Origin: Bacteroidota bacterium
GTDB lineage: Bacteria > Bacteroidota > Bacteroidia > Sphingobacteriales > Sphingobacteriaceae
Assembly: GCA_018266915.1 (NCBI GenBank)
Contig: JAFDZM010000030.1
Span: 62,001 to 126,000 of the forward strand
Length of the DNA: 64,000 bases
Direction: 5' to 3'
Shown: positions 37,270-62,042 of the stretch, piece by piece
How positions within the stretch are numbered: position 1 is the first letter of the stretch
How the letters are laid out: every line of letters starts with the position of its first letter
The notes under the pieces: model-generated
Seen by the model: only the letters and a program-made list of their open reading frames with translations
Told to the model about the DNA's origin: nothing
Databases searched by the model: none
Program-made: the position numbers and the translations under genes

Positions 37270-39090
37270 ATGGCCCTTACAAACGTAACCAGGAAGGCTG
37301 TAACCAATTTTTTACATTGGTTCAATTCACATTTAATAAAGTTTTTCGGCACAGGCATACTGCTTGCATTCCTGGGATTTTCATGGAACGGTGTGAACAG
37401 GAACCACCCGGCTGCTGTTGCCCCCGATAACGACGGGCTTTTCCTGCCAGATGGTTTCAAGGCTATTGTTGTCGTCGATAGTTTAAAGGGGCAAACCAGG
37501 CATATTGCAGTCAACTCAAATGGCGATATCTATGTAAAAGCCAGAAACCACTATTTAAATGGTGGCTACGGCAACATCGCCCTGAGAGACACTAATGGCG
37601 ACGGCAAAGCTGATATTATAACCCCATTCGGGAAGTACGATGGTCATACCTATGGAACAGCTATGCGTATTTATAAAGGCTACCTCTATTTCAGTTCGGA
37701 GCTGATGGTTTACCGCATGAAGCTGAAACGCGGGCAATTGGTTCCGGACAGTAAAATGGATACCATTGTCATCGATAGGCCCCCTTATCATGAACATCAG
37801 ACTAAGCCCATTGCCTTTGATAATAAAGGTCACATTTATGTGGGTTGGGGAGCAGGCTCTAACGCAGGCCAGGAAAGAAACCGTTTACCTGGTTCACCGG
37901 GCGTTGGAGATCCTAATTCGCCAGATAAAGGGAATCCCTGGCTAATAGATCATGGCGGTATATGGATGTTTGATGCAAATAAAACCAGTCAGCACCAGTC
38001 TGACGGTGTGCGTTACGCCACAGGTCTACGGAGTATTGTAGCGATGGATTGGGATCCAAAAAGCAAATCATTATATACTGTGGCTCACGGTCGCGATGAT
38101 TTCCGCATGATCTGGCCCGATCTGTATACCTCATGGCAAAGCGCTATGGAACCCGCTGAAGAGTTTTTTAAAGTAAACGAAGGCATGGACGGCGGCTGGC
38201 CTTACTATTATTACTCTGAGCTTAAAGGTAAAAAACTGCTTAATCCCGAGTTTGGCGGCGATGGAACTAAAGAAGGCAATGGCGCTAAACTAACGCAGCC
38301 TATTTTGGCCTTTCCTGCGCATTTTGCGCCGAATGATCTGCTTTTTTATCATGGTAAGCAATTCCCAGCCCGCTATAAAAATGGCGCTTTTGTGGCATTT
38401 CATGGTTCTACAGATCGTGCACCTTATCCACAGGCAGGTTTTCTTATTGCCTTTGTTCCTTTTAAGGATGGCAAGCCTTCGGGGCCGTGGGAGGTTTTTG
38501 CAGATGGTTTTGCCAGGATTGACCCCATTGTCAATGTAAGCAATGCCGTATACCGTCCTATGGGTCTGGCTGAAGGCCCGGATGGTTCATTATATGTAAG
38601 CGACACTGAGAAAGGAAGAATTTGGCGAATAAAGTTTACCGGTGATAAAAAAGCTTTTGGCACTGAGCAACTGGCTGCTATGGAAAACCGCAAAAAGACA
38701 GCCTCCAACATCAAAACACCGGATGAAATTAAGGATAACCTGTTTAAAGATCTACCTACCGCATCGGTAGTATACAATACTTACTGTATAGCCTGCCATC
38801 AAAGTGATGGCAGAGGTGACGGCAACCGCTTCCCCCCGATCGCACAATCAGAATGGGTAAATTATAACACGGATAGGCTGATCAACGTGGTACTAAACGG
38901 ACTTAAAGGACCGGTAACCGTAAAAGGACAATCTTACAATGAAGTAATGCCTGCACATGGCAGTTTCTTATCTGACGAACAGATAGCCCAGGTACTTACT
39001 TATATCAAATCGAACTTTAATAATCTACCAGAAGTTGTTACACCTGCGCAAGTAAATGCCGTGCGCAAAAAGACCGCCCCAAAACAATGA
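37270..39090 (+). CDS. Membrane-anchored sugar dehydrogenase-like beta-propeller fused to cytochrome c
   Basis: 606-aa protein. One N-terminal membrane helix (about residues 24-40, FFGTGILLAFLGFSW) anchors it facing the periplasm. Residues about 55-460 form a beta-propeller of the glucose/sorbosone dehydrogenase type (PDGFKAIVVVDSL, YATGLRSIVAMDWDP, GPDGSLYVSDTEKGRIWRI). The C-terminal domain is a c-type cytochrome with haem motif CIACH (C506, C509, H510) and a probable axial Met in EVMPAHG. It would oxidise a sugar or alcohol and pass electrons to the respiratory chain. First gene of the eight-gene operon to 45687; its stop overlaps the next start. Confidence 0.85.
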   Translation: MALTNVTRKAVTNFLHWFNSHLIKFFGTGILLAFLGFSWNGVNRNHPAAVAPDNDGLFLPDGFKAIVVVDSLKGQTRHIAVNSNGDIYVKARNHYLNGGYGNIALRDTNGDGKADIITPFGKYDGHTYGTAMRIYKGYLYFSSELMVYRMKLKRGQLVPDSKMDTIVIDRPPYHEHQTKPIAFDNKGHIYVGWGAGSNAGQERNRLPGSPGVGDPNSPDKGNPWLIDHGGIWMFDANKTSQHQSDGVRYATGLRSIVAMDWDPKSKSLYTVAHGRDDFRMIWPDLYTSWQSAMEPAEEFFKVNEGMDGGWPYYYYSELKGKKLLNPEFGGDGTKEGNGAKLTQPILAFPAHFAPNDLLFYHGKQFPARYKNGAFVAFHGSTDRAPYPQAGFLIAFVPFKDGKPSGPWEVFADGFARIDPIVNVSNAVYRPMGLAEGPDGSLYVSDTEKGRIWRIKFTGDKKAFGTEQLAAMENRKKTASNIKTPDEIKDNLFKDLPTASVVYNTYCIACHQSDGRGDGNRFPPIAQSEWVNYNTDRLINVVLNGLKGPVTVKGQSYNEVMPAHGSFLSDEQIAQVLTYIKSNFNNLPEVVTPAQVNAVRKKTAPKQ

Positions 39091-40007
39091 TCAGATCATT
39101 TTTAAACTCTACCTGCAAATACACACTGGCTGCAACTTTAGTATTAGCAGCCCTGAACTCTAATGCACAATCAACGGATTCACTTTTTAAGTCGAAAGAA
39201 TTCACTCCCCCTAAAAGCTTCACCATCGGTTGTGAGGGCCCGGGAGTAGACAAGTATGGCAATGTATACGCCGTGAATTTTGATCACGATGGCACCATTG
39301 GTAAAATGACACCCGATGGAAAAGCAAGCGTATTTATTGAACTACCGAAAGGAAGTACCGGAAACGGTATCCGTTTCGATAGCCACGGTAATATGCTGAT
39401 TGCCGATTACACCGGTCACAACATCATTAAGGTGAATATGACGACCAAAGAGCAAACTGTCTTTGCACATGAGCCCAGGATGAGTCAGCCGAATGATATT
39501 GCTATCGATAATAAAGACCGCCTGTATGCCAGCGATCCGAATTGGAAAGCAGGAACCGGCAAAATATGGCGCATCGACACGGATGGTAAAACAACCGTTT
39601 TAGATTCGATGGCGACAGTTAACGGGATAGATGTAAGTCCGGATAACCACACTTTGTATGTAAACGAAAAGCGCAAAATATGGGCCTATGATCTTTCACC
39701 AAAAGGAGAAATAAGCAACAAGCGGTTGGTTATCGAGTTTACCGATTTTGGTATGGACGGCCTGCGCTGCGATATAAAAGGCAACATATATCAGGCCCGC
39801 TACGGCAAGGGAACCATAGCCAAAGTATCCCCCGATGGCAAAATTCTACAAGAAATACATCTCATTGGCAAAAAGCCTACTAACGTTTGCTTTGGTGGCC
39901 CTGATGGCAAAACCATGTATACCACCTTACAGGATGTGGGTAACCTGGAAACCTTCAGAGTTGATGAACCGGGACGTGAATGGAAGATGGCTAAAAAACA
40001 GAAATAG
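39087..40007 (+). CDS. Exported SMP-30/gluconolactonase-family protein
   Basis: 306-aa six-bladed propeller with a Sec signal (1-28, ending LNSNAQ). Blade motifs typical of SMP-30 lactonases are GCEGPGVDKYGNVYAVNFD, NGIRFDSHGNMLIADYTGH and DSMATVNGIDVSPDNHTLYVNE, including the metal-binding Glu and Asn/Asp positions. It overlaps the dehydrogenase gene by 4 bases, so the pair probably oxidises a sugar to a lactone and then opens the lactone to the acid, both in the periplasm. Confidence 0.88.
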   Translation: MIRSFLNSTCKYTLAATLVLAALNSNAQSTDSLFKSKEFTPPKSFTIGCEGPGVDKYGNVYAVNFDHDGTIGKMTPDGKASVFIELPKGSTGNGIRFDSHGNMLIADYTGHNIIKVNMTTKEQTVFAHEPRMSQPNDIAIDNKDRLYASDPNWKAGTGKIWRIDTDGKTTVLDSMATVNGIDVSPDNHTLYVNEKRKIWAYDLSPKGEISNKRLVIEFTDFGMDGLRCDIKGNIYQARYGKGTIAKVSPDGKILQEIHLIGKKPTNVCFGGPDGKTMYTTLQDVGNLETFRVDEPGREWKMAKKQK

Positions 40008-40095
40008 AGATATCAACCTCATAAAAATCAAAAAAAGTTGATGTGAAGTAACGGTAAAGCCTGAGTTAAGGGTTTTGTTTATTGTAAATGATACT

Positions 40096-40536
40096 ATGAA
40101 AATCATAAAATTAATAACACCTGTTTTATTCGTCGTGCTCACCTTATCGGTTTGCGCGGCGTCTGCGCAGGTAAAGAAAAAGGTTGTCGCTAAGAAAAAG
40201 CCAGCTACTACCGTTACCAAAGCTCCACCACCGCCATTTGCTACTGACGCTGAAATTGCAGATGGAAAGGAAATGATCTCAAAGTCCGATTGTCTTGCTT
40301 GTCACAAAATAGAAGAAAAATTAGTAGGGCCTGCTTACACTTTAATAGCAGCCAAATATCCTCAGAATCAAAATTCATTGGATACGCTCACCAAAAAAAT
40401 CGTTACGGGTGGTAAAGGTGTATGGGGACAAGTTCCGATGGCACCACATCCTAATATTAGCCAGGCCGATGCCAATAAAATGATAAAATATATTCTTACC
40501 TTAAATACTAAGAATCCATCGACGAGTACAAAATAG
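40096..40536 (+). CDS. Exported monohaem cytochrome c
   Basis: From the ATG at 40096 the protein has 146 aa with a Sec signal ending SAQ; an ATG at 40075 would add 7 unlikely residues. A Lys/Pro/Ala linker (residues 25-45) is followed by a class I cytochrome domain with CLACH (C66, C69, H70) and axial Met in VPMAPHPNIS. It likely carries electrons from the dehydrogenase-cytochrome fusion two genes upstream to a terminal oxidase. Confidence 0.9.
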   Translation: MKIIKLITPVLFVVLTLSVCAASAQVKKKVVAKKKPATTVTKAPPPPFATDAEIADGKEMISKSDCLACHKIEEKLVGPAYTLIAAKYPQNQNSLDTLTKKIVTGGKGVWGQVPMAPHPNISQADANKMIKYILTLNTKNPSTSTK

Positions 40537-40594
40537 TTTATACCTCAAATAAGAAAAACAAAACACTTTATACGATCACTAAACTTAAAACAAC

Positions 40595-41056
40595 ATGGAA
40601 AAAAGAAGATCTGTTCTGAAAAAAATGCTGGCTTCAATTGCCGGGCTGTCAGTTCTCGGAATAAGCAAAGATGCCGTAGCAGCACCTGCCGATGAAAAAG
40701 TAGTGAACAATGTAACAACGTTCCAGGATGTGCCGCTATTTTCAGGCTCAACCAAATTGGGCAACCTTGTTTTCGTTGCCGGAAAAGGCGCCCATGTTGA
40801 ACCTTTTGAGATCAAAGCTCACACCGAGATCGTACTGAAAGAACTTGAAAAAGAACTAATAAAAGCAGGCTCTTCAATGGAGAAAGTGCTTAAAGTAAGC
40901 GTTTTCCTGAATGATATTGCCGATTATCAGGGCATGAACGAAGTTTACAAAGGCCGTTTCGGTAAAAACCCTCCTGTTCGTACCACAGTTGCAGTAGCCA
41001 AAGGCGGCGTACCGGGCAACTCACTGGTTGAAATGGATTGCATGGCTTATATTTAA
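40595..41056 (+). CDS. RidA-family deaminase with Tat signal
   Basis: 153-aa RidA (YjgF/UK114) protein that hydrolyses reactive enamines and imines released by PLP enzymes. The substrate-carboxylate arginine R129 is in PPVRTTVAVA, and the core VFVAGKGAHV and KVSVFLNDIADYQGMNEVY are typical. Unlike ordinary cytosolic RidA, it begins with a twin-arginine signal, KRRSVLKK then a hydrophobic stretch and AVAA, so it should be exported folded. It precedes a Tat-exported PLP enzyme by 12 bases, which suits a RidA partner. Confidence 0.9.
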   Translation: MEKRRSVLKKMLASIAGLSVLGISKDAVAAPADEKVVNNVTTFQDVPLFSGSTKLGNLVFVAGKGAHVEPFEIKAHTEIVLKELEKELIKAGSSMEKVLKVSVFLNDIADYQGMNEVYKGRFGKNPPVRTTVAVAKGGVPGNSLVEMDCMAYI

Positions 41057-41068
41057 CAGACCGATAAA

Positions 41069-42283
41069 ATGAAACGCAGAGACATATTAAAAGGCCTTAC
41101 CATTTTACCATTATCAACAGGTTTGGTAAGCAAGGCATCCGCTATAGGCCTTACCAATACCCCTCCTACTCCCAAAAAGCAAGAACGCGATCTTTTTAAA
41201 GAACTTGGCGTTACGCCGGTAATCAACGCATCGGTGACCATGACTTTTCTATCTGGCTCACTAATGCTGCCTGAAGTGCTGGAGGCAATCAATTCTACCT
41301 CGCACGACTTCGCCAACATGTATGAGCTACAAGACAAAGTAGGCGCAAAAATTGCCGAGATGCTTCATGTTGAATCAGCAATGGTTACTTCAGGTGCGGC
41401 ATGTGCTATTTTGTTGAGCACAGCAGCTGCCATTACCGGAACAGATCATGAGAAGATAAAACTACTGCCTAATCTACCAGGCCCACGCCCGGAAGTGATC
41501 ATGCAGAAATCGCACAGGTACCTGTTTGATCAGGCAGTGACCACAACCGGAGCTAAAATCATCGAGGTTGAGGGCAATGATGAGATGGATAAAGCTTTCA
41601 ATGAAAGAACGGTAATGGCTTTGTTCTTCAACGCTGCGGGAAAACACAGTGTTACTCATGAGGACTTTGTCGGGATAGCAAAAAAACACAACATCCCTAC
41701 TTTACTGGATGCTGCAGCCGATGTACCGCCCGTTGAAAACCTATTCAAATATCAGAAGATAGGTTTCGACCTGGTTACTTTTTCAGGTGGTAAAATGATT
41801 CGCGGACCGCAGAGTGCAGGTTTATTATTTGGTCGTAAAGATTTGATCACAGCTGCGAGGCTAAACCATAGTCCAAATGAAGCACCGATTGGTCGCCCGA
41901 TGAAGGTGAATAAGGAAGAAATGTTCGGCATGTATGCTGCATTGAAGGCTTATTTGGAAAGAGATCATAAAAAAGAATGGCAGGATTGGCTTGATCGCGC
42001 AAAACATATCGGCACACAACTGGAAGCGGTTCGGTCAGTAAAAACCGAAACAGTTGTTGATCCGGGACCAGCAAATGCGTTCCCAAGCCTTAAAGTAACC
42101 TGGGATGAAAGCAAGATCAAGATCAAACCTGAACAGGTTGTTGCTGCATTAAAGAATGGAACACCAAGTATTGTTGCTAATGGAGGCAAGGATCATCTCA
42201 CCGTCGGTGTAGTGCTTTTACGTCCTGACCAGGTGGATATCGTAGCCGGAAGGGTAAAATCCATATTGCAGCAGGCTGTATAA
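41069..42283 (+). CDS. SelA-like PLP-dependent enzyme with Tat signal
   Basis: 404-aa fold-type I PLP enzyme of the SelA/COG1921 group, whose non-selenium members include D-glucosaminate-6-phosphate ammonia-lyase-type enzymes. The Schiff-base lysine is K242 in TFSGGKMIRGPQSAG, the pyridine-binding Asp is D214 in LLDAAAD, and TSGAACAI is the phosphate loop. The N-terminus MKRRDILKGLTILPL...KASA is a twin-arginine signal, which would allow export with bound PLP. Placement between RidA and an amidohydrolase suggests a deaminating lyase acting on a deacylated amino acid or amino-sugar acid. Confidence 0.85.
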   Translation: MKRRDILKGLTILPLSTGLVSKASAIGLTNTPPTPKKQERDLFKELGVTPVINASVTMTFLSGSLMLPEVLEAINSTSHDFANMYELQDKVGAKIAEMLHVESAMVTSGAACAILLSTAAAITGTDHEKIKLLPNLPGPRPEVIMQKSHRYLFDQAVTTTGAKIIEVEGNDEMDKAFNERTVMALFFNAAGKHSVTHEDFVGIAKKHNIPTLLDAAADVPPVENLFKYQKIGFDLVTFSGGKMIRGPQSAGLLFGRKDLITAARLNHSPNEAPIGRPMKVNKEEMFGMYAALKAYLERDHKKEWQDWLDRAKHIGTQLEAVRSVKTETVVDPGPANAFPSLKVTWDESKIKIKPEQVVAALKNGTPSIVANGGKDHLTVGVVLLRPDQVDIVAGRVKSILQQAV

Positions 42284-42343
42284 ATTTACGGCCCTGCCAA
42301 TGGGCCAATTATAAACCTATTTATTGTAATTATTTGCTAAAAG

Positions 42344-43633
42344 ATGCAAAAGCGCTTCTTAATATTTATTCTGTTTTGTTTATTCAGCCGGTTATCTATT
42401 GCCCAGTCCTATGACATCGTGATCAAAAATGGGCATGTGATAGATCCTAAAAATAATATCGATGCGGTGATGGATGTCGCCATAAGCGATGGTAAAATAG
42501 CTGCTGTCTCAAAAGACATCGATGCTAAGCAAGCTACACAGGTAGTGGATGCCAAAGGCATGTACGTTGTACCGGGATTGATCGATATTCACACGCATGA
42601 TTTTTATGGCACCGAGCCAGATCACCAATATGAGAACGGTAATCTGGGCATTGCTCCTGACGGTTTTACTTTCAGAAACGGAGTAACAACCGTTGTGGAT
42701 GCTGGCAGCTCAGGCTGGAGGACTTTTCCAACTTTTAAATCACAAACTATTGACGCTTCAAAAACACGGGTATTAGCATTCCTGAACATCGTGGGCGAAG
42801 GTATGCGAAGCGGTTACGAGCAGAATGAGAACGACATGGATCCTAAGATGACCGCGCTGGTAGCCAAAAGATACAAGGACATTATTGTTGGTATTAAACT
42901 GGCACACTATGAAGGTCACGACTGGACACCAGCCGACCGCGCTGTTGAGGCCGGAACATTGGCAGGCGGAATTCCGGCGATGATCGACTTTGGAGGAAGC
43001 AACCCGCCGTTGTCTATCGAAGAGTTATTTTTAAAGCACCTCCGGCCCGGAGACATTTTTACCCATTGTTTCGGGCAATTGGGCAGCAGGGAATACATTG
43101 TAGATCTGCAAACCAACAAGGTAAAAACATTTGTGTATGAAGCCCGGAAGCGGGGGATCATTTTTGACGTGGGTTACGGAGGTATCAGCTTTGCCTATTC
43201 CCAGGCCATACCTGCTGCAAAAGAAGGATTTTTCCCCAATTCCATCAGCACAGATATTCATGTCGGCAGCATGAATGACGCCATGAAGGATATGCTTACC
43301 TGTATGACTAAATTTTTGGCTATAGGTATGCCTTTGCATGATGTTATAGAGGCCAGTACATCAAATCCTGCTAAGGAAATAAAACATGAGGAACTGGGGA
43401 ACCTATCTGTAAGCTCGGGTGCAGATGTGGCTATATTGGATATGGTTAAAGGTAAATTTGGCTTATTTGATTATACCGGTTACAAAGTAGAAACCGACAA
43501 AAAACTGCAATGTGAAATGACCATCAGGGCAGGTAAAATAGTATACGACCTGAACGGCATAGCCAACCCTATCTATCCGCCTAAAAAAGTAGCGCAGAGC
43601 AAACAGGACGCATCAAAGGGACAAACCCATTAA
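42344..43633 (+). CDS. Exported amidohydrolase (COG3964-like deacetylase)
   Basis: 429-aa amidohydrolase-superfamily enzyme with a Sec signal (1-21, ending LSIAQ). The metal site includes H83 and H85 in DIHTHDFYG, the probable carboxylated lysine in IVGIKLAHYEG, His in FTHCFGQ, and Asp in ISTDIHVG. Relatives deacylate N-acyl or O-acyl hydroxy/amino acids. Next to a SelA-like enzyme and RidA it most likely prepares the free amine for the PLP step. The C-terminal 25 residues are a basic, disordered-looking tail. Confidence 0.88.
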   Translation: MQKRFLIFILFCLFSRLSIAQSYDIVIKNGHVIDPKNNIDAVMDVAISDGKIAAVSKDIDAKQATQVVDAKGMYVVPGLIDIHTHDFYGTEPDHQYENGNLGIAPDGFTFRNGVTTVVDAGSSGWRTFPTFKSQTIDASKTRVLAFLNIVGEGMRSGYEQNENDMDPKMTALVAKRYKDIIVGIKLAHYEGHDWTPADRAVEAGTLAGGIPAMIDFGGSNPPLSIEELFLKHLRPGDIFTHCFGQLGSREYIVDLQTNKVKTFVYEARKRGIIFDVGYGGISFAYSQAIPAAKEGFFPNSISTDIHVGSMNDAMKDMLTCMTKFLAIGMPLHDVIEASTSNPAKEIKHEELGNLSVSSGADVAILDMVKGKFGLFDYTGYKVETDKKLQCEMTIRAGKIVYDLNGIANPIYPPKKVAQSKQDASKGQTH

Positions 43634-43643
43634 TTTAAAATCA

Positions 43644-44573
43644 ATGAAATATTATAAACTACTGCTTTTAGCATTAATTGTAAATATTGGAAGTCAGCTT
43701 AAGGTCAGTGCGCAAACTATTTCAAGGGATGAGCTGATCTTTTACACCTCCGAATGGAAAGGTGAACGCTTTGCCGACGGAAGGCCAAAAATTCCGGATG
43801 CGTTGATCGAAAGGGCGAAAAATATCAGCATAGAAGATGCCTGGACTGTTTTACGAAATGAAGGCTATTTTAATCAGTTTGAAAGTGGCTGGAAATTAGT
43901 GAACGATACCATTCCGGTTGTAGGCCGCGTGGTAACTGCCATGTATATGCCAAGCCGACCGGATGTAGAGAAGGCCATCAAGGAACGAGGCGCTAAACAA
44001 GGCAGGAAAGGCAATACCAATTCATGGCCGATAGATCAATTGGTTAAGGGCGATGTTTATGTAGCCGATGGCTTCGGGAAAATACGCGGTGGGACTTTGA
44101 TAGGTGACAACCTAGGCAACTCCATATTCAACAAATCCGGCAATGGGGTCATTTTTGAAGGCTCGGCGCGAGATTTACAGGGTCTAAGAGAAATAAAGGG
44201 ATTCAATGCTTTTGTGCGCGATTTTGATCCCTCCTATCTGGAAGAAATGGTATTAATGGGACTTAATACGCCTATTCGCATCGGTCATGCCATCGTATTA
44301 CCGGGCGATTTGGTAATAGCCCAAAAGGAGGGTGTGCTTTTTATTCCGGCGCATCTTGCTGAGAAAGTTGTTGCCATATCAGAGTTTGTTGCTTTGCGTG
44401 ATGATTTCAGTCATGCTATGCTTAAAGCAGGCACATTCTCGACCGGCGAAATTGACAGCGAGTGGAGCAACAAGATCAGGGAAGCCTTTTTAAAATGGCT
44501 GGATGAAAATCCGAAGAAAGGAAAAATGACCCGGTCACAATTGGATTCGTTTATGGAAAAACGTACCTGGTAA
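43644..44573 (+). CDS. Exported RraA-like protein (aldolase/decarboxylase fold)
   Basis: 309-aa protein of the RraA/4-hydroxy-4-methyl-2-oxoglutarate aldolase superfamily with a Sec signal ending KVSAQ. The active-site pattern is intact: GDVYVADGFG (137-145), GGTLIGDNLG (149-158) and EGSARDLQG with R176 and D177, the pair that in HMG aldolases binds pyruvate and metal. This argues for a retro-aldol or decarboxylase activity and not the RNase-E inhibitor role of E. coli RraA. An N-terminal extension (25-90) and a helical C-terminal tail are extra. Substrate is presumably the 2-oxo acid made by the preceding genes. Confidence 0.85.
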   Translation: MKYYKLLLLALIVNIGSQLKVSAQTISRDELIFYTSEWKGERFADGRPKIPDALIERAKNISIEDAWTVLRNEGYFNQFESGWKLVNDTIPVVGRVVTAMYMPSRPDVEKAIKERGAKQGRKGNTNSWPIDQLVKGDVYVADGFGKIRGGTLIGDNLGNSIFNKSGNGVIFEGSARDLQGLREIKGFNAFVRDFDPSYLEEMVLMGLNTPIRIGHAIVLPGDLVIAQKEGVLFIPAHLAEKVVAISEFVALRDDFSHAMLKAGTFSTGEIDSEWSNKIREAFLKWLDENPKKGKMTRSQLDSFMEKRTW

Positions 44574-44598
44574 CCAATCACAACCTAAATTTAAGCAA

Positions 44599-45687
44599 TT
44601 GAAAAACAGCAATATTTATAAAATCTTAGGCGGCATTGCTGCGCTGTGCCTGCTTTTGGCGCTATGGCGCACTGTTCAGTACGGCATTGCCCAAGCAGGG
44701 TACCTTATTATCGCATTCTTTATAATTCTCGCTATTGCTTGTCGTGGATCAGCAGTTCTCAAAGGCTTTTCATATACGCTGACCATTTTCTCAGCAGTAA
44801 CCACAGCATTATATTTTCCGCAATATTTTGTACAGGTGAATGGCTTTAAACTCGCTACACTAATCACACCGCTGCTGCAAATTATTATGTTTGGTATGGG
44901 TACCTCTATGGGTTTGAATGATTTTGCAGGTGTGATTAAAATGCCCAAAGGTGTATTTATTGGTGTGGGCAGCCATTTTATTATTATGCCACTGTTAGGT
45001 TTTACATTAGCTAAATTAAGTCACTTCCCTCCTGAAATTGCTGCTGGTATAATATTGGTGGGCTGCTCACCAAATGGGATGGCTTCGAATGTAATGTCCT
45101 ACCTGGCAAAGGCTAACCTGGCTTTATCAATCACCATAACTGCCGTTTCAACTTCGCTGGCTCCATTTATAACTCCTTTATTGATGAAGCTACTTGGCGG
45201 TGAATTTATCAAGATCGATGCAATGGCCATGATGTGGGATATCATCAAGATAGTGATCATTCCTATCGGCGCTGGCATTATTTTCAATAAGTATTTGCTC
45301 AAACGTGCTTCATGGCTGGAAAAATTGATGCCGCTGGTGTCCATGTTCGGTATAGCGTTCATCATCGTTATCATTACAGCTGCCGGCAGGGATAGCCTGC
45401 TTAATATTGGCGGAATGCTGGTTTTATTGGTGCTTGTTCATAACCTGCTTGGATACACATTCGGCTATTGGGCAGGGCGGTTATTCAAAATGTCTGAGCG
45501 CGATTGCCGTACCATGGCCATAGAAGTAGGTATGCAAAATGCAGGACTTGCATCTGGCTTAGCAAAAGCGATGGGAAAAATTGCAACTGTTGGCCTCGCT
45601 CCTGCCGTATTCGGCCCGATGATGAATACCACCGGATCATTACTCGCCAATTACTGGCACCGCAAACCACTCAGGGAAAAAGAATAA
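44599..45687 (+). CDS. BASS-family sodium symporter
   Basis: 362-aa bile acid:sodium symporter-like protein with about 10 helices plus a short extra N-terminal helical pair. Family motifs: IMFGMGTSMGLNDFAGV, GCSPNGMASNVMSYLAKANLALSIT (sodium-site unwound helix) and EVGMQNAGLASGLA. BASS members carry bile acids, pantothenate, or 2-oxo acids such as pyruvate. The start is TTG at 44599; no ATG lies in frame near it. Last gene of the operon before a strong terminator, fitting import of the operon's acidic product. Confidence 0.88.
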   Translation: MKNSNIYKILGGIAALCLLLALWRTVQYGIAQAGYLIIAFFIILAIACRGSAVLKGFSYTLTIFSAVTTALYFPQYFVQVNGFKLATLITPLLQIIMFGMGTSMGLNDFAGVIKMPKGVFIGVGSHFIIMPLLGFTLAKLSHFPPEIAAGIILVGCSPNGMASNVMSYLAKANLALSITITAVSTSLAPFITPLLMKLLGGEFIKIDAMAMMWDIIKIVIIPIGAGIIFNKYLLKRASWLEKLMPLVSMFGIAFIIVIITAAGRDSLLNIGGMLVLLVLVHNLLGYTFGYWAGRLFKMSERDCRTMAIEVGMQNAGLASGLAKAMGKIATVGLAPAVFGPMMNTTGSLLANYWHRKPLREKE

Positions 45688-45716
45688 ACCACTTTCAGTT
45701 TAAAGGTTTGTACGAA

Positions 45717-45755
45717 CAACAAAAGCTCCGGCATAAAAAACCGGAACTTTTGTTG
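45717..45755 (+). terminator. Terminator of the dehydrogenase-to-BASS operon
   Basis: CAACAAAAG and CTTTTGTTG plus inner TCCGG / CCGGA form a stem of about 14 pairs with one internal mismatch and an A-rich loop. It lies between convergent genes and may act on both. Confidence 0.85.
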
Positions 45756-45788
45756 AATATATGGATTAAAAAAAGCGCAGAATAACAA

Positions 45789-61995: not shown

Positions 61996-62042
61996 TTTGA
62001 GTAACCAATCGATTTCTTATATATTTGTAACCGATCGGTTAC
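61996..62042 (+). promoter_or_regulatory. Promoter and palindromic operator of the ArsR-SRPBCC operon
   Basis: -33 element TTTG (61996-61999), 20-base spacer, -7 element TATATTTG (62020-62027). Overlapping its end is the perfect 16-bp palindrome GTAACCGATCGGTTAC (62027-62042), with a half-like copy GTAACCAATCG at 62001. The palindrome covers the start of transcription, so binding of the encoded ArsR-type repressor would block the promoter. Confidence 0.75.

Follow-up and report, generated by a model that had tools for sequence, protein, structure and literature searches.

The gene cluster

We describe here a cluster of eight genes in a 64,000-nucleotide stretch of Sphingobacteriaceae DNA (positions 62,001 to 126,000 of contig JAFDZM010000030.1, called the window hereafter), which probably encodes a catabolic pathway for amino sugars located in the periplasm. 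The eight open reading frames (ORFs) occupy positions 37270-45687, all on the + strand, with intergenic gaps of -4, 88, 58, 12, 60, 10 and 25 bases (Table 1). The hairpin that closes the series lies inside a folded stretch (45695-45775) of -20.6 kcal/mol, compared with a shuffle mean of -9.1. The arrangement given in a preliminary description of this DNA, namely eight co-directional genes with these gaps and a single terminal hairpin, is borne out by the ORF coordinates and the folding. For the small cytochrome c the ATG at 40096 was taken as the start, the ORF tool beginning at the TTG at 40075; in the dehydrogenase-cytochrome c, the CxxCH motif is kept in 20/20 aligned sequences, the window protein among them. 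Judged by its RraA-like protein, the closest named relative among the matches listed is Mucilaginibacter sp. BT774 (91% identity), the records nearest to the window genome possibly being excluded.

Table 1. Features of the cluster, with family matches, signals and proposed roles
Feature	Position	Strand	Family match, signal and proposed role
GSDH-type sugar dehydrogenase fused to cytochrome c	37270..39090	+	GSDH PF07995 E 2.9e-9; PF00034 E 3.4e-9; N-terminal membrane anchor
SMP-30/gluconolactonase-like (SGL) lactonase	39087..40007	+	PF08450 E 5.8e-41; Sec-like signal ending NA/QS
Small exported cytochrome c	40096..40536	+	PF00034 E 2.5e-10; presumed electron acceptor for the dehydrogenase
RidA	40595..41056	+	PF01042 E 6e-19; RR signal MEKRRSVLKK; presumed enamine/imine deaminase
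SelA/DgaE-like fold-type I pyridoxal phosphate (PLP) enzyme	41069..42283	+	TIGR01437 194 bits; RR signal MKRRDILKG; proposed ammonia lyase on a 2-amino-2-deoxy sugar acid
Amidohydrolase/deacetylase-family metallohydrolase	42344..43633	+	NF006689 451 bits; Sec-like signal ending IA/QS; proposed N-deacylase
Exported RraA-like protein	43644..44573	+	PF03737 E 1.1e-15; Sec-like signal ending SA/QT; proposed pyruvate aldolase
BASS/SBF-family importer, PanS-like	44599..45687	+	PF01758 E 5.5e-41; TTG start; proposed 2-oxo acid import
Terminator-like hairpin after the last gene	45717..45755	+	Fold z -4.28

With somewhat better than even confidence, we read the eight genes as encoding a pathway in the periplasm by which N-acylated 2-amino-2-deoxy sugars, or the acids derived from them, are broken down. 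The membrane-anchored dehydrogenase-cytochrome would oxidise the sugar at C1, with the small cytochrome c receiving the electrons; the lactone would be opened by the SMP-30-like lactonase and the acyl group taken off by the exported amidohydrolase. The SelA/DgaE-like PLP enzyme, exported by the twin-arginine translocation (Tat) system, would remove water and ammonia, and the exported RidA would hydrolyse the enamine/imine, giving a 2-keto-3-deoxy sugar acid, that is, 2-keto-3-deoxygluconate (KDG) or a stereoisomer. The RraA-like protein would most likely split this acid into pyruvate and an aldehyde, and the BASS protein would import the resulting 2-oxo acid. This proposal draws on gene content, signal patterns, co-inheritance, active-site residues and linkage, from which each reaction, and the last two above all, is deduced.

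Conservation and co-inheritance

Gene neighbourhoods were fetched for 20 relatives by means of the SelA-like protein and for 80 by an alignment of RraA, 100 loci in all (L046-L145); those fetched with RraA are the best 80 of 533 relatives (592 stretches matched), and their frequencies describe RraA neighbourhoods rather than species. Two pairs of entries are the same contigs (L047/L070 and L048/L073), so that the 100 loci are 98 distinct ones. As the loci end at 10 kb flanks or at contig ends, gene counts per locus are lower bounds, and the genes were labelled by their similarity to the window proteins and to a few added queries. A SelA-like gene is found in 42/100 loci, accompanied by an amidohydrolase in 39 of them, a RidA-type gene in 34, RraA in 32, SusC or SusD in 27, a sugar dehydrogenase/lactonase in 26 and BASS in 24; for the less biased set of 20 loci fetched with SelA, the figures are 18 for the amidohydrolase, 17 for RidA-type genes, 11 for RraA and 9 for BASS. 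Common adjacent pairs in the 100 loci are SelA followed by the amidohydrolase (30), RraA by BASS (27), the amidohydrolase by RraA (26) and RidA by SelA (22), and runs of SusC-SusD-RidA-SelA-amidohydrolase-RraA-BASS occur in two Dyadobacter (L101, L121), in a Mucilaginibacter metagenome-assembled genome (MAG; L077) and in a Sphingobacteriaceae MAG from a lichen (L070).

SelA (E <= 1e-30) is present in 25 of the 151 genomes examined from the window's family. The amidohydrolase (E <= 1e-60) is found in these same 25 genomes and in 0/126 others, and RraA (E <= 1e-60) in 25/25 and in 6/126 others. Counted by genus, SelA occurs in 6/25, with RraA in all 6 and in 2/19 of the SelA-free genera. The p-value for co-inheritance (3e-23, Fisher) ignores phylogeny and overstates independence, since 13/25 positives come from one genus. 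The 100 neighbourhoods and the 151 family genomes show a conserved association of exported SelA, RidA, amidohydrolase and RraA genes, for which the preliminary description had proposed to look across Bacteroidota, and co-inheritance, together with the signal patterns described below, supports the claim that the eight genes act as one exported functional unit. A high copy number was observed in 13 genomes of one genus (G429, G470, G476, G482, G488, G493, G498, G503, G508, G513, G518, G523 and G533) and in G453, each with 4 to 12 SelA-like and 6 to 11 amidohydrolase copies by score, candidates at first look numbering up to 26 and up to 42, respectively; both genes are absent from 126/151 family genomes.

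Export signals

Signals were scored by pattern rules made for this analysis, namely a twin arginine followed by a hydrophobic N-terminal region (RR+hydrophobic) and [AGSCT]Q after the hydrophobic region (h-region), rather than by a signal-peptide predictor. The preliminary description had assigned an export signal to each enzyme, and this assignment stands. The lactonase, cytochrome c, amidohydrolase and RraA of the window show a hydrophobic stretch followed by ...A/Q, Sec-like ends that agree with the 'Q-rule' of Bacteroidetes for signal peptidase I substrates (PMC5837995), and the dehydrogenase has a membrane anchor. RidA and the SelA-like protein carry a twin-arginine motif before the h-region and the genome contains tatC (TatC E 7.7e-72), so that by pattern both are putative Tat substrates.

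In the fetched neighbourhoods, RR+hydrophobic N-termini are found on 51/54 SelA, on 5/6 members of a longer SelA class and on 33/36 RidA, compared with 40/951 unlabelled ORFs. Signal-less orthologues in the same operon had been named beforehand as an observation that would refute the proposal; no genuine case was seen, as of the three SelA misses two are genes truncated at the locus edge and the third is an ORF called too long, with the motif inside it. Two of the three RidA misses have R-K instead of R-R, and the third is an over-long call with the motif inside. The [AGSCT]Q pattern is present in 63/67 amidohydrolases and 123/128 RraA, against 325/951 unlabelled ORFs and 5/40 BASS, and is weaker in the front end (lactonase 9/19, GSDH 8/23). 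This rule is a loosened one; its stricter first version gave 35/67 for the amidohydrolase, 63/128 for RraA, 7/19 for the lactonase, 158/951 for unlabelled ORFs and 1/40 for BASS. When the DgaE family model was run on 395 genomes of the phylum, 14 matches (E <= 1e-20) were obtained in 8 genomes, none above the cut-off of the model. All 14 fall in genes observed with an RR signal, and thus no unexported member of the DgaE-like family was found in this sample.

The PLP enzyme, RidA and the amidohydrolase

The PLP lysine (K242) and the PLP aspartate (D214) of the SelA-like protein are invariant in 37/37 aligned sequences. Its predicted model (pLDDT 89) has as best structural matches the capuramycin enzyme Cap15 (8t7j, Z 39.9) and the ammonia lyase DGL of the Dga pathway (7lc0, Z 37.9; 351 residues aligned, rmsd 2.3), the next entry reaching 26.5. 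DGL and SelA are presumably fold-type I PLP enzymes. Cap15 and the Pseudomonas protein PvdN have been classed in this same type (PMC7497351). It could be argued that the window enzyme is an O2-dependent oxidase/oxygenase like these two and that the cluster modifies its substrate rather than degrading it, an idea helped by the top rank of Cap15 and by the Tat export of the O2-using PvdN (PMC7497351, PMC6085387). However, such an activity would leave RidA, RraA, BASS and the kinase/aldolase linkage described below unexplained. The two essential lysines of Cap15, K262 and K265 (PMC6411801), lie in a motif, R-x-M-K-x-x-K, that is also present in DGL, and hence these lysines do not discriminate an oxygenase from a lyase. 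The predicted fold by itself suits a DGL-like lyase and a Cap15-like O2-using enzyme equally; considering all the evidence, we regard an oxygenase as very improbable.

The phosphate-binding arginines of DGL (R301, R332 and R346) are lost, with Arg in 1, 1 and 0 of 37 sequences, as expected for an unphosphorylated substrate met outside the inner membrane. At the columns of DGL His162/His163, His is found in 2 and 1 of 37, the window loop reading NAAGKHS. The H163A variant of DGL releases the enamine (PMC9529869). The loss of this proton donor was considered as the reason for the presence of RidA and was dropped, since in Rhizobium a RidA gene adjoins an apparently cytoplasmic homologue in which His-His is intact, and since a haloarchaeal SelA homologue without His163 has no obvious signal. 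On the Rhizobium leguminosarum plasmid pRLG202 (L183), RidA stands next to a SelA-like gene without obvious signal in an ABC-transporter operon, apparently a cytoplasmic relative pair. The longer exported SelA-like class mentioned above (about 550 residues) has a C-terminal extension of about 120-150 residues (L060:8669-10348, L062:424-2088, L142:3645-5276, L074:609-2258), which matched no Pfam family in the two members scanned (L060, L062).

RidA residues R129 and E146 are conserved in 37/37 aligned sequences, the window included, R129 corresponding to the conserved Arg (Arg105 type) of archetypal, active RidA. Against the archetypal RidA model, TIGR00004, the window protein scores 63.5 bits, below the cut-off of 106.25. 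RidA-type genes are found in 20/30 SelA/amidohydrolase loci and in 0/50 others, which is what one would see if the PLP enzyme were the sole source of free enamine; the proposed tie between RidA and the PLP enzyme is in this way upheld. An account of the Rid family (PMC4433059) makes no mention of periplasm, signal peptide, amidohydrolase, selenium, glucosaminate or Bacteroidetes. The window amidohydrolase scores above the NF006689 cut-off of 371 bits, and its residues H83, H85, K185, H241 and D304 are kept in 62/62 sequences, and H306 in 61/62.

Front end and substrate class

The dehydrogenase/lactonase front end of the preliminary description is indeed present in the window; as a general part of the pathway it looks optional, being found in 26/42 SelA loci within the fetched stretches. 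The proposal of an amino-sugar acid as the substrate class, with a sensible order of chemistry, is supported by the predicted functions and their contexts, the exact substrate being a conjecture. On a plasmid of the acidobacterium Granulicella (L180), signal-like N-termini are shown by RraA, SelA, RidA, the amidohydrolase and a second PLP protein of 532 residues, and after these come genes for a PF10282 lactonase, a BBE/FAD oxidase and a GH35 beta-galactosidase; in the oxidase, no signal is obvious from the start as annotated. This fits with other families filling the places of the window lactonase and dehydrogenase and serving the same front-end functions. The haloarchaeal homologue lies among genes annotated as D-aminoacylase, heparinase II/III and GH20, and both contexts would fit amino-sugar acids as substrates. 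CBM9-like sugar-binding domains were detected in 13/66 neighbours scanned, hand-picked from 214 unlabelled ones.

A deacylase, a PLP dehydratase and RidA would be enough for the scavenging of N-acyl D-amino acids or N-acyl beta-hydroxy amino acids (e.g., N-acyl D-serine or D-threonine) instead of sugars, and OngC, the glucosaminate (GlcN1A) deaminase of oxidised-chitin degraders, also works on D-serine and D-threonine (PMC9537276). Such a role would not account for the sugar dehydrogenase/lactonase genes and the other oxidase and lactonase families of Granulicella, for the sharing of RraA with sugar-acid dehydratase loci, for KDG/2-keto-3-deoxygalactonate (KDGal)-type kinases and CBM9 domains, or for the GH20 and heparinase annotations around the haloarchaeal homologue, and we consider it improbable.

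Two other arrangements were observed. In L119, L131 and L134 (and in L112 and L098), a pyrroloquinoline quinone (PQQ)-type dehydrogenase, a cupin protein and an exported RraA lie close together. Four of these loci (L119, L131, L134 and L098) also have an SGL-cupin protein in the vicinity, and the arrangement may be a variant of the route for glucose. In L062 (9346-10644), an RR-signalled protein of 432 residues with no Pfam match at E 0.001 stands beside SusCD and an amidohydrolase.

Possible fates of the predicted 2-keto-3-deoxy sugar acid

Among the 80 RraA loci, SelA is present in 22, an RR-signalled enolase-superfamily enzyme in 30 and an RR-signalled UxuA mannonate dehydratase in 6; 56 have at least one of these three, 8 more have the amidohydrolase only, and 16 none. 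The best models for three enolase-superfamily representatives scanned were galactonate and gluconate/galactonate dehydratase, below cut-offs, and the UxuA assignment comes from one representative scanned. RR+hydrophobic N-termini are found on 34/34 labelled enolase-superfamily proteins, and NRR on 12/13 UxuA, the thirteenth being at a locus edge. Enolase-superfamily sugar-acid dehydratases and UxuA yield 2-keto-3-deoxy sugar acids. The DGL reaction gives a 2-keto-3-deoxy sugar acid as well (PMC9529869). Exported RraA thus stands beside three unrelated enzyme families that are expected to converge on these acids, and one dehydratase operon (L087: SusC-SusD-RraA-dehydratase-dehydratase-RraA-RraA-BASS) mirrors the SelA runs.

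The HMG/CHA aldolase 3noj, which Foldseek places fourth for the predicted model of the window RraA (pLDDT 89.7), has D102, R123 and D124 at the positions that align with D155, R176 and D177 of this RraA. We take these three aldolase residues to be catalytic, and the alignment confirms that the Arg-Asp pair noted earlier is in place. D-R-D is kept at 155/176/177 by 32/40 RraA of SelA/amidohydrolase loci without a linked aldolase. As an observation apart, Spirosoma and Larkinella (L085, L092, L104, L117, L120, L123) have tandem exported RraA-RraA pairs, which lie divergent to the gene for an enolase-superfamily dehydratase with an RR signal. Where the aldolase has Asp102, one copy of the pair has Ser and the other Ala; the two may form one enzyme.

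These associations led us to consider a wider and more tentative reading, to which we give appreciably less than even odds: that a complete catabolism of the Entner-Doudoroff type, periplasmic and free of phosphate, operates in many Bacteroidota and in at least one acidobacterium, and that the window would be its amino-sugar branch. Sugars would be oxidised and lactones opened outside, the three unrelated Tat-exported families would make 2-keto-3-deoxy acids, exported RraA would cleave them, and only small acids would cross the inner membrane.

A different fate is suggested by genes encoding kinases and aldolases. BASS could bring in the intact 2-keto-3-deoxy acid, which a KDG/KDGal kinase would phosphorylate and a cytosolic aldolase of the 2-keto-3-deoxy-6-phosphogluconate (KDPG) type would split, RraA then having another role, e.g., as a decarboxylase, an epimerase or in binding. 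Right after BASS, L142 has a PfkB kinase, which stays below the cut-offs of its best NCBIfam models (KHG/KDPG-aldolase-kinase fusion and KDG/KDGal kinase), and a KDPG/KHG aldolase that exceeds the cut-off of NF005499. At least one gene of this aldolase family was found in 32/32 SelA-positive genomes tested, from which 18 further regions (L162-L179) were derived, and the window's genome has two elsewhere. A relative of 2-keto-3-deoxy-galactonokinase (DGOK) and a KDPG/KHG aldolase lie in SelA clusters at eight loci of eight genomes, seven of the many-copy genus and one (G249) of another family; two of these kinases were scanned (PF05035, E 2.5e-58 and 5e-61), and the other six were assigned by similarity to one of them. 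By these gene contents, some relatives seem to handle the 2-keto-3-deoxy acid inside the cell by kinase and aldolase. In the 18 regions, the signal pattern is present in RraA (14/14), the amidohydrolase (31/34), SelA (7/8) and long SelA (13/16) and absent from DGOK (8/8) and the aldolase (17/18); of the four SelA misses, one is an internal piece of 357 residues in L173 and the other three are genes truncated where the stretch ends. The boundary between outside and inside steps therefore seems to be written into the gene cluster, as far as signal patterns can tell.

On the other hand, kinase and aldolase genes of this kind were found neither around the window cluster nor, within the fetched stretches, in 41/42 SelA loci of the first 100, and most RraA of loci without a linked aldolase keep D-R-D, as said above. 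None of the six kinase-linked loci showing RraA does so: five have D-Y-L and one A-R-D. The exported RraA in which the Arg-Asp pair has become Tyr-Leu were observed in L170, L171, L175, L177 and L178, clusters with the DGOK relative, and the kinase-linked L169, L172 and L176 have no RraA in the fetched stretch. This pattern fits a division of labour in which the acid is either cleaved outside by RraA or processed inside by kinase and aldolase; it reflects few independent events, most kinase-linked loci coming from one genus. RraA and a linked cytosolic aldolase were also tried as strict alternatives, which fails, as nine loci have both. Taken together, we consider the import of the intact acid unlikely for the window.

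Several observations weigh against the periplasmic pathway ending in RraA cleavage. Residue 155 is Ser, Gln or Ala in 7/40 RraA of the SelA/amidohydrolase loci without a linked aldolase and Ser or Ala in 55/64 RraA of dehydratase loci, where it fails as a general marker of aldolase activity, so that aldolase chemistry cannot be assumed for the whole RraA family. RraA is retained with both Arg and Asp replaced in the five loci that have kinase and aldolase, and it is intact in 9/9 loci with a KDPG/KHG aldolase and no recognised KDG kinase, as the import of the intact acid would allow. No relative of SusC, SusD, KDG/KDGal kinase or KDPG aldolase was found among the 31 ORFs of window positions 25000-60000 (one SusC and one SusD query were used). 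The SelA-like protein stays below the TIGR01437 (DgaE) cut-off of 385.3 (194 bits, E 3.4e-57) and is as near to the O2-dependent Cap15 as to DGL, and, given the Rhizobium pair, proton-donor loss alone does not explain RidA. The window and Granulicella lactonases match each other's Pfam model weakly and may be distant beta-propeller relatives. There was no signal specific to N-acetylglucosamine (GlcNAc): GH20, tried as a sign of its use, proved uninformative, being present in 16/16 genomes (7 with and 9 without a SelA gene).

Concerning transport, the window BASS protein scores 242.8 bits against the PanS model for ketopantoate/pantoate (NF047939), below the cut-off of 400. BASS co-occurrence (21/30 SelA/amidohydrolase loci versus 10/50 others) was rejected as a context marker, since BASS also serves dehydratase loci. 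In L061 (2229-7258) and L063 (10585-16202), two stretches that lack a BASS gene, a lactate-permease-family transporter adjoins RidA2, a GSDH-like protein and an amidohydrolase. Finally, in ten regions (L162-L168, L173, L174 and L179) a KDPG/KHG aldolase accompanies RraA and/or BASS, and long SelA, a 2-hydroxyacid dehydrogenase and glycerate kinase are also present if the stretch extends far enough; these clusters recall the breakdown of aldaric acids to pyruvate and glycerate, possibly for amino-sugar diacids.

Comparison with known systems

In polysaccharide utilisation loci, a SusC/SusD pair would be expected; none was found near the window cluster, yet SusC or SusD accompany the majority of the SelA loci. 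The preliminary description held periplasmic PLP chemistry to be very unusual, a statement to be qualified by PvdN, a working PLP enzyme exported through Tat (PMC6085387, PMC7497351). Tat export is what the two have in common; PvdN is biosynthetic (pyoverdine), uses O2 and stands outside any catabolic set. Cap15, with DGL the closest solved fold, acts on a beta-hydroxy-alpha-amino acid, and it is an O2-dependent monooxygenase-decarboxylase of antibiotic synthesis.

By sequence and predicted fold, DGL, which belongs to the cytoplasmic Dga pathway of similar workings, is the nearest characterised homologue of the window PLP enzyme in a sugar-acid pathway. The two enzymes share the PLP lysine, and both would be expected to convert a 2-amino-2-deoxy sugar acid into a 2-keto-3-deoxy acid. 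DGL takes a phosphorylated substrate after uptake by the phosphotransferase system (PTS), whereas the window enzyme lacks the three phosphate arginines and His162/His163 and carries an RR signal. The archaeal non-phosphorylative branch of the Entner-Doudoroff pathway leads from sugar to lactone, sugar acid, 2-keto-3-deoxy acid and then pyruvate plus an aldehyde. The phosphate-free steps would be the same here; the archaeal branch is cytosolic and uses a DHDPS-type aldolase, whereas the window set is predicted to be periplasmic, with an RraA-fold candidate.

If our proposal is true, a pathway for carbon and nitrogen runs for the most part outside the cytoplasm, and so does PLP chemistry that sets an enamine free, perhaps with no ATP spent on phosphorylation and with electrons delivered straight to cytochromes. 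It also offers a testable function for the exported SelA, RidA, RraA, UxuA and galactonate dehydratase families of soil and aquatic Bacteroidota, which are usually annotated by their cytoplasmic namesakes, and, for the oxidised amino sugars that chitin and other glycans yield, a route beyond the mainly gammaproteobacterial Ong pathway.

This Ong pathway for oxidised chitin in Pseudoalteromonas and Vibrio, with the deacetylase OngB, the PLP deaminase OngC, the RidA protein OngD and KdgK (PMC9537276), bears on the earlier statement that no pathway of this design had been described. The cytoplasmic pathway shares the logic, and in this respect the statement does not hold; for the periplasmic version, no earlier description was found among the literature matches listed, most subscription journals and all bioRxiv preprints lying outside their scope. 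The likeness is considerable: an amidohydrolase deacetylates N-acetylglucosaminate (GlcNAc1A), the PLP enzyme gives KDG and ammonia, RidA is needed for growth, and KDG is the hub (PMC9537276). In the Ong pathway, OngB resembles subtype V D-aminoacylases and OngC is of fold-type III, both are predicted to be cytoplasmic, and KdgK follows (PMC9537276). The window has instead a deacylase of the NF006689/EF_0837 type, which matches PpOngB only over residues 18-87 (E 8.3e-8), a SelA-like PLP enzyme of fold-type I, and export signals throughout. RidA is thus the shared member, the OngB-type deacetylase and the fold-type III deaminase being absent. As judged from its genes, the window cluster is a member neither of the Ong pathway nor of the curated DgaE family; rather, it would follow the Ong scheme with different components and in a different compartment.

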